Shown here piece by piece: positions 30,158 through 34,895 of a stretch of 35,006 bases of DNA. Position 1 is the first letter of the stretch. Every line of letters begins with the position of its first letter. Source of the stretch: Thermoplasmatota archaeon (GTDB taxonomy: Archaea; Thermoplasmatota; Thermoplasmata; Thermoplasmatales; Thermoplasmataceae); NCBI GenBank assembly GCA_023484805.1, contig JAMDAM010000003.1:1-35006 (forward strand), read 5' to 3'. The notes under the pieces are model-generated. The model was not told where the DNA came from. It was given only the letters and a program-made list of their open reading frames with translations, and did no database searches. A program made the position numbers and the translations under genes.

Positions 30158-30802
30158 TTATTGGATGCTCATTAATGAATTTAACGCGCCAAGCGGATCT
30201 TGTGCCTTGACAACGCCTGAGGCAACGAGGACTCCCTTGGCACCAAGTTCGAAGGATTTTTCAACATCTCCTGAGTTCTTTATCCCGGCTCCTACCAGGA
30301 GATCAACATCAAATTTACTGCACAATCGCGCGGCATTCTCGATGACGTCAGGCCTGGCCGTCGAAACGGAAATATTCCCTCCAATAAGTTCCCTCGGCTC
30401 GTAGGCGATGTAACGGGGTGTGACTCCAACATACTTCTCGATTTCCCCCATGTTTTCAAGGCATAGGGTGATATTGAATCCTAAATCATCTGCGTGTTTT
30501 ACTGTTGATATTATCTGTTCCGGCGGAATCCTGTTTTCAGAGTGGTTCAGCAAGGACCCATGGATTCCCCTCTCTATCAGGGATTCCATTGATATCTTTC
30601 CGGTGTATGCACCATACCCTACAGGATCTACATGCTGTGCAAGGAAAGAAATGTTCCCAGCAGCATTGCTCAGATTCAGGTCAAGCGGGCTGAGAGCGAC
30701 CTGGAGACTTGACTTCCTTCTATTTTGAATTTTAGAAAAACCGTCAAGAAGAATTCTGGCTCTTTCCCCAGTGGCTTCGAAATAATGCTTGAAATTTACC
30801 AT
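30158..30802 (-). CDS. tpiA: Archaeal-type triosephosphate isomerase
   Basis: VNFKHYFEATGERARIL, LAQHVDPVGYGAYTGKIS, GSLLNHSENRI, IAYEPRELIGG, LLVGAGIKNSGDVEKSFELGAKGVLVASGVV. Confidence 0.93.
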   Translation of the reverse strand: MVNFKHYFEATGERARILLDGFSKIQNRRKSSLQVALSPLDLNLSNAAGNISFLAQHVDPVGYGAYTGKISMESLIERGIHGSLLNHSENRIPPEQIISTVKHADDLGFNITLCLENMGEIEKYVGVTPRYIAYEPRELIGGNISVSTARPDVIENAARLCSKFDVDLLVGAGIKNSGDVEKSFELGAKGVLVASGVVKAQDPLGALNSLMSIQ

Positions 30803-30948
30803 GTAGCAAAAATCCGGCATGCTCCCAAATTTCAGATCCTTATTATTATGTTGCTATGTTTTTCTGTGTAGTTTGGGAGGAGGCATGATGGAAATGCATC
30901 ATCATCAGTAACTTCGGTCAATAAATTCTTCTGCCCGGAAACTTGTAT

Positions 30949-31662
30949 TCAGTAACCTGACCAGGGTCCTTCCAGCGCCTGCTTCAGACGGAGTACCTCA
31001 TCTTCATATTCTTTTGATCCTTTCGGATATCTCTTCGGGGTTGGTTTGTCATCTCTGGCAGCCTTAAGTTGTGAGGTCCCAGATATCAATTCCCTGATCA
31101 ATCTGGGATTTTCCCGGGTATTCCTTGTTCCAGGTTTTGGTTTCAGGAGATGCGATGTTGTTGTGAGCGGTTCCTTGACTATGTCTGGAATCACGACAGG
31201 GGGAGCAGCCTCCAGTAGATTTTCTTCGTGCCCTCCTTCCTTTACTGAATCCCTCTCAGTCCGAGGAACGTGTTCCAGCCTTTCCGGGAGTTCAATAATT
31301 CCTTCTCTTTCCTGCTGTTCGTGTTTCTCTTTTGCGACAACAGCCTTATGATCATTAGGTGGCCAGTAATGCCCCCTTCCCGGCGATTCATTCTTATATG
31401 CAAGCAGGGAGTTCTCTATGCTTGTGATAGTAACAAAGTCCCGGCTTTCTCCGAGCATTTTATCTATCTGCTGGCCAAGTTTCTCCACAAATTCCTTGAG
31501 TCTCGGCATCTCAATCGCTTCGCGAAGAATTCTCTGGATCGCTTCGCGATCAGTTTCACCTGGCCATTTTAGAAGTTCAAGTACTAAGTAATCGTCCCCG
31601 TCCAGCAAAACACTCTTGGCCTCTTCGCCGCTGTCACTCTTTTTTTTCTTGTTTTTATCCAT
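30949..31662 (-). CDS. Charged protein encoded directly downstream of the actin homologue; candidate partner
   Basis: 237 aa; Lys-rich N-terminus, helical N-terminal region, long low-complexity/charged middle, C-terminal amphipathic segment SKEYEDEVLRLKQALEGPWSGY. Confidence 0.7.
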   Translation of the reverse strand: MDKNKKKKSDSGEEAKSVLLDGDDYLVLELLKWPGETDREAIQRILREAIEMPRLKEFVEKLGQQIDKMLGESRDFVTITSIENSLLAYKNESPGRGHYWPPNDHKAVVAKEKHEQQEREGIIELPERLEHVPRTERDSVKEGGHEENLLEAAPPVVIPDIVKEPLTTTSHLLKPKPGTRNTRENPRLIRELISGTSQLKAARDDKPTPKRYPKGSKEYEDEVLRLKQALEGPWSGY

Positions 31663-31720
31663 TTACCCATTACCTCTATGAGTCCATAGAAGCGTGTCGC
31701 ATCATAATAAAATAAAAAAA

Positions 31721-32698
31721 TTATTTGGATCTTTCAGCAGCGTCCCTGTATCCAAGGGCGTTAGCGAACTGAAGATCTTCCGGTGCAGCACTTACAAGCG
31801 CTCCCGGCGCAAGGACATCTAATGACTGCCCAATGAGAGCGGCTCCGCCACCAACGGGTATTAACGCGGTGACACGATCCAGTTCCCCTCTGAGGTTGGC
31901 CCTGAGGCTGTCAAGTATCCTGTTTGAGAGTTCCTTCAGTATAGGCGCGCCAACTTCCGCCCCCCCGACCTGCCTCTGCTTGAACATAACAGGTGTGGTC
32001 AATGCCTGTCTGGCAACATCAGTCGGAACTACGAACCCTGTCTGTCTGGCTATGAGCTTACCGATATTAGAGACCGCGTCTCCTATTCCTGCCTCAATTG
32101 AGAATGACATCTCTACGACTGGCTCCATGTTCATGAGGTTTATGGTCAGAACATCAGTTGTTCTTGATCCTACATCAATCACAAGCCCGTACCCAGGCTG
32201 GCTCTTGACAAGTCCCTTCTCAACGAGATATAGTGCGGCTCCTACTCCCTGTGGTCTCACAACAAGCCTCTCTATGTGTATCTGTCTTGACTGCCCGTTG
32301 TTTGCCTTTATTGTAAGCGTTTTGCCCTCAAGTGATTCCCTTGCAGCCGCGACTTCCTGATCAAAGGTACCAAGAGGTGTTCCGCTACCAAGCGTTATGC
32401 TGGTCTGTGCTCCGCCATCGCCAGCTCCGCTTATCCAGAGAGCCGCTGCAAGCAGTGGCAGTGAATCCGCACTCGACAGTCTTCCATCTCCTAAGGGTTC
32501 CCTTGCACCAGCACCAGTGGCGTTTTCTCCAAATATGAAGGGATCCCCGTCGTCTACGGCCAGCGATAGTATCGATCCTCCAAATCCCCAGGATTTAGAG
32601 TCGTATTTCGCCCACCTGGATGGGAACTTCTCCCTGCGTCCGTCTACACCGATTACTTTCGTATCTCCATAACCCAAATCTATACCTACTGAGACCAT
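31721..32698 (-). CDS. ParM/actin-like ATPase, Thermoplasma Ta0583-like
   Basis: MVSVGIDLGYGDTKVIGVDGRREKFPSRWA, GSGTPLGTFDQEV, VVRPQGVGAALYLV, GLVIDVGSRTTDVLTINLMNMEPVVEMSFS, LIPVGGGAALIG, PEDLQFANALGYRDAAERS: actin-fold phosphate 1, phosphate 2 and adenosine motifs, strongly resembling Ta0583 as remembered. Confidence 0.93.
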   Translation of the reverse strand: MVSVGIDLGYGDTKVIGVDGRREKFPSRWAKYDSKSWGFGGSILSLAVDDGDPFIFGENATGAGAREPLGDGRLSSADSLPLLAAALWISGAGDGGAQTSITLGSGTPLGTFDQEVAAARESLEGKTLTIKANNGQSRQIHIERLVVRPQGVGAALYLVEKGLVKSQPGYGLVIDVGSRTTDVLTINLMNMEPVVEMSFSIEAGIGDAVSNIGKLIARQTGFVVPTDVARQALTTPVMFKQRQVGGAEVGAPILKELSNRILDSLRANLRGELDRVTALIPVGGGAALIGQSLDVLAPGALVSAAPEDLQFANALGYRDAAERSK

Positions 32699-32850: not shown

Positions 32851-32880
32851 GCATCATTAGATGATCTAGTGATCCGATGC
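32851..32880. promoter_or_regulatory. Nested inverted repeats in the leader/promoter region of the actin-like gene
   Basis: GCATCATTAGATGATCTAGTGATCCGATGC: outer GCATC/GATGC, inner ATCAT-TAG-ATGAT and GATC-TAGT-GATC. Lies just downstream of minus-strand TATA TTTATATTTA (32911-32920). Confidence 0.4.
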
Positions 32881-32910
32881 CAGTCGCACATACCTCATCT
32901 ATTAGCTACA

Positions 32911-32920
32911 TAAATATAAA
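32911..32920 (-). promoter_or_regulatory. Candidate TATA box for the actin-like gene
   Basis: Reverse-strand TTTATATTTA preceded by purine-rich ggcaaaaaga (BRE-like). Confidence 0.45.
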
Positions 32921-33257
32921 TCTTTTTGCCTTTTGCATGAGGATTTTTGTTCACAAATTAACTGCTCATAGAATAAAAAAGCGGTTTTTGTGAATAGAAT
33001 AGAAATTTCGCCCATAACAAGAGACGAAATAATTTACCTCTGATATTGCTATGTACATTATTTTGTACATCATCATTGCGATTTAGTGTGCCCTCTTGGC
33101 GGTTATGTTTCTTCCAGTACTTATTTTTATTCCAACAGGAAAAGTGACCAGGCCTAAATTCGAAAGCTACAACCAACTTGAGAGGTAACATTAATTTGTG
33201 CATCGGTTGACTTTATTTTTCATGCGACCTATTTCACTTAAATATGTAGGATATCCA

Positions 33258-34231: not shown

Positions 34232-34642
34232 TTATCCTGACTTGATTATCAACCCAGTATTTGCTATCTCTTTTTCCCTTTCTATAAATTCGCGGTCAAA
34301 AGTTATAAAGGTATCTGCCTCGATTATCATGCTAGCGGAAATATGCAATAGGTCCAAGGTCTTCATTCTTATCCTAACTGCAATTTCAATGGCGTTGCTG
34401 ATGATTTTGTTCATGTCCACTCCGGGGATTTCAACATTAATTTCAGGTAAATAATCGACAAAAGCTTCTATTTCATCCAAGCTCAGATTCGTTGTCCTAG
34501 AAAGTACGGATTTTAATTCCAAAACAGCTACTAGGGATGTAACCTTCTTATCTTCGTGGTCAAAGATTTTCAGTGCTCTTGCATGATTAGCATCTCTGCT
34601 ATTAAGGAATGAAATTATAACATTTGTATCAATATAATTCAG
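34232..34642 (-). CDS. vapC: PIN-domain toxin, VapC-like
   Basis: Frame open upstream of the listed ORF: (L)NYIDTNVIISFLNSRDANHARALKIFDHEDKKVTSLVAVLELKSVLSRT...TLDLLHISASMIIEADTFITFDREF. N-terminal YIDTNV and distal DLLHISAS/TFD acidic motifs are PIN-like. Start appears to be CTG (34640-34642) or an ATT six bases upstream. Confidence 0.8.
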   Translation of the reverse strand: MNYIDTNVIISFLNSRDANHARALKIFDHEDKKVTSLVAVLELKSVLSRTTNLSLDEIEAFVDYLPEINVEIPGVDMNKIISNAIEIAVRIRMKTLDLLHISASMIIEADTFITFDREFIEREKEIANTGLIIKSG

Positions 34643-34643
34643 T

Positions 34644-34895
34644 TTAATCCCGCTCCTTTATTGAAATTTCTGATAAGTCAGAGGGAAGTTCCGGAAGTCC
34701 TTTTTCCTTCCATACCTTGATAATGGCTTGACTTTTTTCCCTTCGCTCCACTGTTTTTTTTGCGCTTTGCATACCATACTGCATAATCCATCTCAAGGCA
34801 TCTGTCTTGTTACTAGCAAGCTTATATCTTATCAACTTGTCAATCAAATTCGAAGTGTTATCATCTATCCTCAATGCGATAACATTTGTTACCAT
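34644..34895 (-). CDS. vapB: VapB-like antitoxin
   Basis: 83 aa, N-terminal ribbon-helix-helix-like segment (VIALRIDDNTSNLIDKLIRYKLASNKTDALRWIMQYG); stop lies 1 bp from the apparent VapC start. Confidence 0.75.
   Translation of the reverse strand: MVTNVIALRIDDNTSNLIDKLIRYKLASNKTDALRWIMQYGMQSAKKTVERREKSQAIIKVWKEKGLPELPSDLSEISIKERD

Follow-up and report, generated by a model that had tools for sequence, protein, structure and literature searches.

A Ta0583-type actin and a candidate adaptor form a conserved ParMR-like gene pair in the chromosomes of Thermoplasmatales

The Thermoplasma group comprises acidophilic archaea that lack a cell wall. Within a 35,006-nucleotide stretch of Thermoplasmatales DNA (hereafter the window), a gene for a Ta0583-type actin is directly followed by a gene for a 237-aa partner protein, and this operon-like arrangement is retained across nine genera of the order. 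The actin is orthologous to Ta0583, the two genes co-occur, and the partner features an RHH-type profile match near its N-terminus and a conserved helix at its C-terminus. We think it fairly likely that the two genes constitute a ParMR-like module of the chromosome that derives from plasmid ParMRC or is shared with it, and in which the partner would bind both DNA and the actin groove and the filament would move DNA.

The window actin and its orthologues

The actin-like ATPase (31721..32698, minus strand; 325 aa) was assigned to the ParM/MreB-like proteins by phmmer, Pfam, and motif alignment. Its phmmer match to PDB 2fsj, Ta0583 of T. acidophilum, has an E-value of 6.9e-134; the ParM entries 6izr and 6ixw match at 2e-11 in the PDB search; and the Pfam domains PF17989 (ALP_N) and PF21522 (MreB-like_C) both score well above cut-off. 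The nucleotide-binding motifs DLGYG[DE]TK, IDxGxxTT, and PVGGG are kept across the family: in 11 divergent orthologues that we aligned, the motifs for phosphate and adenosine are conserved. Judged by its sequence, the window actin is an intact Ta0583 orthologue and an actin-like ATPase of the ParM/Alp type that is found in ParMRC systems.

The partner gene (30949..31662, minus strand) lacks a Pfam match. It is separated from the actin gene by 58 bp (31663..31720), compared with 7-84 bp in other genomes, a distance consistent with one transcript.

Pairing across the order

Our survey covered 117 genomes of the order, 37 of which contain the actin or its remnants. Among them are 29 actin-partner pairs (28 genomes, nine genera), all with the partner on the same strand and directly after the actin at gaps of 7-84 bp. 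A profile of the partner family strongly matched 29 genomes, and all of these but one also encode the actin; in the exception, G092, a 3.2-kb contig breaks off at the partner gene. Co-occurrence of the two genes gives a Fisher p of 4e-18, a value that ignores phylogenetic relatedness. The outer neighbours vary by genus and include triosephosphate isomerase (TIM) in the window and peroxiredoxin, prpBD-like, and DsrE-like genes elsewhere; it is thus the pair, and not a larger block, that is the kept unit. Several of the genomes consist of one contig each (1.5-2.2 Mb), which places the pair in the chromosome. One genome (G097) encodes an actin 100% identical to the crystallised Ta0583, with a 102-aa partner ORF 7 bp downstream. 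We therefore regard the observation as confirmed: the actin and its downstream partner are a real, conserved unit, and their pairing is not due to chance.

Several loci merit separate mention. The window's triosephosphate isomerase gene (30158-30820, minus strand) lies directly downstream of the pair, a position occupied by other genes in other genera. The chromosome of the uncultured archaeon ASS_A1 (CP009479) harbors two divergent pairs (L074 and L075), each with its own partner, whose actins are 67% and 58% identical to the window actin. In Thermogymnomonas acidicola (L091), the partner ORF is intact and the actin reading frame is broken, which may be a sequencing error in the draft genome.

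Nine genomes in total have the actin or its remnants and no partner. Seven of these encode intact actins (Ferroplasma, Acidiplasma, and relatives) with neither an adjacent partner nor a partner-profile match elsewhere in the genome, and the actin may therefore have a partner-independent role. These actins occupy two separate places on the actin tree, indicating two losses of the partner. Within the Ferroplasma group, a lineage without the partner, two loci (L054 and L055, in G068 and G062) retain only actin remnants with stop codons. Four actin positions, among them the C-terminal D319 and R323, are changed specifically in the partner-less lineages; control clades yielded 0-17 such positions and D319 is mostly absent from partner-bearing bacteria as well, and we dropped this as a signal of co-evolution.

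Architecture of the partner

The partner consists of three parts: an N-terminal RHH-type domain, a disordered linker, and a C-terminal helix. Members are often only 18-30% identical to each other, and conservation is unevenly distributed. Genus representatives share on average 60% identity over residues 226-234, 36% over the RHH core, and 17% over the linker, and the three invariant residues (window numbering; 22-29 partner members) are E51, E231, and W234. Sequence searches of Pfam and PDB with the partner returned nothing credible, the best PDB matches being coiled coils or designed helical proteins. The original prediction described the protein as having a basic N-terminus, a helical segment, and a probably disordered middle. 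AF2 agrees with this gross layout, modeling a confident helical domain after the basic N-tail (pLDDT >90 at roughly residues 20-60) and a low-confidence middle (<50 for the greater part of 94-183). What the prediction had missed are the RHH-type domain at the N-terminus and the highly conserved, confidently modeled helix at residues 217-235. The accompanying account of the locus, an actin with its nucleotide-binding motifs and a 237-aa protein 58 bp downstream on the same strand, holds, now with orthology to Ta0583 and family-wide motifs.

The RHH-type domain spans residues 12-51 (31510..31629, minus strand) and was delineated by hhalign and by the AF2 layout, in which an extended strand (16-21) is followed by a helix (22-31), a turn, and the beginning of a second helix (38-91) at a pLDDT of about 90-95. 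Aligned by hhalign to RHH_1 domains of related genomes, the partner reached a probability of 86.5, a pairwise E of 4.5e-6, and a score of 27.8 over 40 columns. None of 200 column shuffles reached that score (maximum 16.9); the reversed profile scored 10.4, and no 61-column window of the actin exceeded 14.7. The Thermoplasma partner shows the same order of elements in AF2 at lower confidence. Direct searches were negative: no partner member reached the gathering cut-off of Pfam RHH_1 (PF01402), the best E-value being 0.26, in 2 of 22 members, and Foldseek of two AF2 partner monomers against PDB returned no match, neither an RHH nor a ParR structure. RHH is an obligate dimer fold, and in a model of one monomer its strand has nothing to pair with; the Foldseek result is therefore weak evidence against it. 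Overall, the profile-profile comparison points to an adjacent ParR-like protein with an RHH domain, for which DNA binding is predicted, and the monomer models do not reproduce that match. In the E-plasma genus (L069-L071), the N-terminal RHH strand is poorly conserved and the partners run on beyond LExxW as a charged stretch, which suggests a derived form.

The linker (residues 76-216; 31015..31437, minus strand) is mostly disordered in AF2, and its length varies between genera, some linkers having a few dozen residues and others more than 130. It leads to the C-terminal helix (residues 217-235; 30958..31014, minus strand; pLDDT about 90) with the motif L-x3-LE-x2-W, the best conserved part of the protein, in which the Glu and Trp are invariant. 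In 28 of 29 partners the pattern [LIM]x3[LIM]ExxW falls among the final 45 residues, the 29th having Phe at the first position, and a near-identical pattern occurs at the same place in none of 873 background ORFs. Because this Trp helix is conserved, ends a flexible linker, and is encoded beside an actin gene, it is best read as a candidate actin-groove-binding peptide. What it has in common with the filament-binding C-terminus of ParR is its architecture, and binding is predicted from that likeness.

DNA upstream of the pair

A probable archaeal promoter of the actin-partner unit (AAAAAGATTTATATTTAT; 32910..32930, minus strand) was recognized by eye and is kept in 4/4 congeners. The palindrome TAGATCATCTA (32858..32868, minus strand), also upstream of the actin, is a weak candidate operator or parC site; it is kept in three of four congeners, altered in the fourth, and occurs once in 400 kb of G044, at the same place. 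We looked for parC iterons as 8-mer repeats, direct or inverted, in the 400 bp upstream of each actin; compared with shuffles, the archaea showed no consistent excess, and no further significant copies of the upstream region were present in its own genome.

An upstream block common to the four congeners was considered as a centromere signal and rejected, its conservation being unremarkable, ninth among 35 upstream regions (z 0.6, G044 vs G046). Likewise, a structured RNA in this block was discarded after no Rfam match was obtained up to E 5. Further along the window (34232-34895, minus strand), a gene for an RHH-looking protein of 83 aa precedes an ORF that resembles a PIN domain (Pfam PIN E 0.019, short of the cut-off); together they look like a VapBC toxin-antitoxin pair.

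Plasmid-like relatives in bacteria

In a scan of genome contigs, the nearest non-archaeal actins, at 40-50% identity, came from Bacillota metagenome bins; no relatives were found on viral contigs. Neighbouring genes encode a T4SS coupling protein, MobL relaxase, TraG, and ParB, and the contigs are therefore probably conjugative plasmids. After nearly all of these actins comes a small ORF that begins with a hydrophobic, strand-like stretch and whose C-terminus takes forms such as LAALEGRWAGDDG, KLAAIQGPWANDD, or RLSALDRAFGDDP. In an actin tree with a midpoint root only, no other bacterial branch lies as near to the archaea as that of the two loci with the Trp form of the C-terminus (L083 and L084). 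Profiles of the bacterial and the archaeal partners gave no significant alignment (E 0.31), their best local match being the C-terminal aLE..W; common descent of the two is plausible. When the bacterial partners were compared with RHH domains, the strand alone aligned and the shuffle control contained two outlier scores, and we set this comparison aside. Earlier work had already grouped Ta0583 with ParM/MreB-type proteins by way of horizontal transfer from bacteria.

Comparison with known systems

The closest characterized relative is Ta0583 of T. acidophilum itself (PDB 2fsj, 2fsk, and 2fsn), an orthologous actin whose own partner has the same RHH-type start and ends in ELKKNLESRWK. This partner comprises 102 aa rather than the 237 aa of the window protein, in which the linker is much longer. 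The accessible part of the open-access literature on Ta0583 does not name the partner gene, and an earlier remark in the structure paper is possible; our searches of the open-access literature on Thermoplasma, ParR, and archaeal actin returned no report of a Thermoplasmata ParR.

In type II plasmid partition (ParMRC; R1 and pSK41), parM likewise precedes parR, and ParR combines an RHH domain with a ParM-binding C-terminus. PMC4911067 describes both features of ParR, its RHH DNA-binding domain and its C-terminal binding to ParM, from pSK41 and R1 evidence. In contrast, the module of the window is archaeal and chromosomal, no parC was found, and the partner is not alignable to known ParR (Pfam, PDB). 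More distant are the ParM of Sulfobacillus plasmid pY0017 and WP_014107011.1: a ParM/StbA protein with 28% identity precedes, by 187 bp, a 93-aa RHH-looking ORF ending in AILGAFGIEDDE; this system differs in lying on a conjugative plasmid and in having Phe, not Trp, as the C-terminal aromatic residue.

Chromosomal ParMR systems were described from bacteria in 2025, in a paper that does not discuss archaeal systems (PMC12270681). The cParMR of Desulfitobacterium and Clostridium resembles the present pair as a chromosomal actin with an RHH adaptor predicted by context and fold, and a conserved parC was likewise not identified in the Desulfitobacterium strains. It differs in being bacterial and of another ParM subfamily, 8x1i matching the window actin only at E 9e-5.

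Among archaea, crenactin of Pyrobaculum shares its gene cluster with arcadin-2, whose C-terminal 17-residue helix sits in the hydrophobic groove of crenactin, probably via a tryptophan; the authors liken this site to ParM:ParR (PMC5173319). Crenactin itself, however, belongs to the eukaryote-actin-like branch. Arcadin-2, to our knowledge, lacks an RHH DNA-binding domain. Salactin, a haloarchaeal actin, has been proposed to partition DNA.

Interpretation and alternatives

The original prediction likened the pair to ParM and ParR, tied that likeness to conserved synteny beside Ta0583 orthologues, and called for a fold comparison with RHH and ParR proteins. The synteny was recovered in nine genera, and the fold comparison gave a mixed result, an hhalign match to RHH_1 without a Foldseek counterpart for the monomer models. 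Together with the variable disordered linker, the Trp helix, and the plasmid-like relatives, these findings favor the analogy; that parC was not found and that two lineages lack the partner count against it, and the function as a DNA adaptor is what we infer. The finding is now better supported than could have been known at the outset and is most aptly classed as a ParMR-like module of an archaeal chromosome.

The partner could instead be mainly a regulator of the filament, sequestering or depolymerising actin as arcadin-2 does, with an RHH domain that serves only to form dimers and to autoregulate the operon, and with no DNA being moved as cargo. Such activities have precedents, as the C-terminal Trp helix of arcadin-2 depolymerises crenactin (PMC5173319) and Cb-cParR depolymerises mature cParM filaments (PMC12270681). 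That parC was not found also suits a regulator of this kind. Nevertheless, we hold it to be unlikely: the parallel with arcadin-2 does not extend to any RHH domain that we know of, and a predicted DNA-binding fold fused to a putative filament-binding tail across nine genera fits a DNA adaptor better. We judge it more improbable still that the module was co-opted for cell organization or shape, with the partner linking filaments to another scaffold and DNA binding being vestigial. The family does occur in wall-less archaea, a role in cell organization was reportedly suggested in the Ta0583 structure paper, the E-plasma genus has a degenerate RHH strand, and Ferroplasma and Acidiplasma retain the actin without the partner; yet in conservation the RHH core ranks second among the parts of the partner, and the partner features no membrane or scaffold domain. 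Finally, the nine genomes without the partner might be taken to mean that the adjoining gene is functionally unrelated to the actin and adjacent by accident. This is scarcely credible in view of 29 pairs with changing outer neighbours, the co-occurrence p-value, and a similar arrangement on bacterial contigs of plasmid-like character, and synteny refutes it for practical purposes.

In the ParMR-like module that we favor, the Ta0583-type actin would form ATP-dependent filaments and the partner would dimerize through its N-terminal RHH domain, bound to a DNA site, where it would probably also repress its own operon. The flexible linker would span the distance to the filament, the C-terminal Trp helix would dock in the hydrophobic groove of the actin, and filament growth would move or anchor the partner-bound DNA.

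The crystal structure and filament biochemistry of Ta0583 date back about twenty years, with no cellular partner known for this actin; it now has a conserved candidate adaptor. Because the pair looks like a plasmid DNA-segregation machine that has settled in the chromosome, the orphan actin gains a testable job, and the candidate adaptor of T. acidophilum itself, at 102 aa, is easy to make and offers a specific mechanism to test. The bacterial relatives suggest an exchange of plasmid actin with acidophilic Bacillota, and the ParMR-like reading, if true, would extend chromosome-borne ParMR modules to archaea. That Thermoplasmata segregate or anchor their own chromosome with a domesticated plasmid ParMR, an actin with an RHH adaptor, is a more tentative proposal, possible and on present evidence somewhat doubtful; if true, it would represent an actin-driven chromosome segregation apparatus in archaea.
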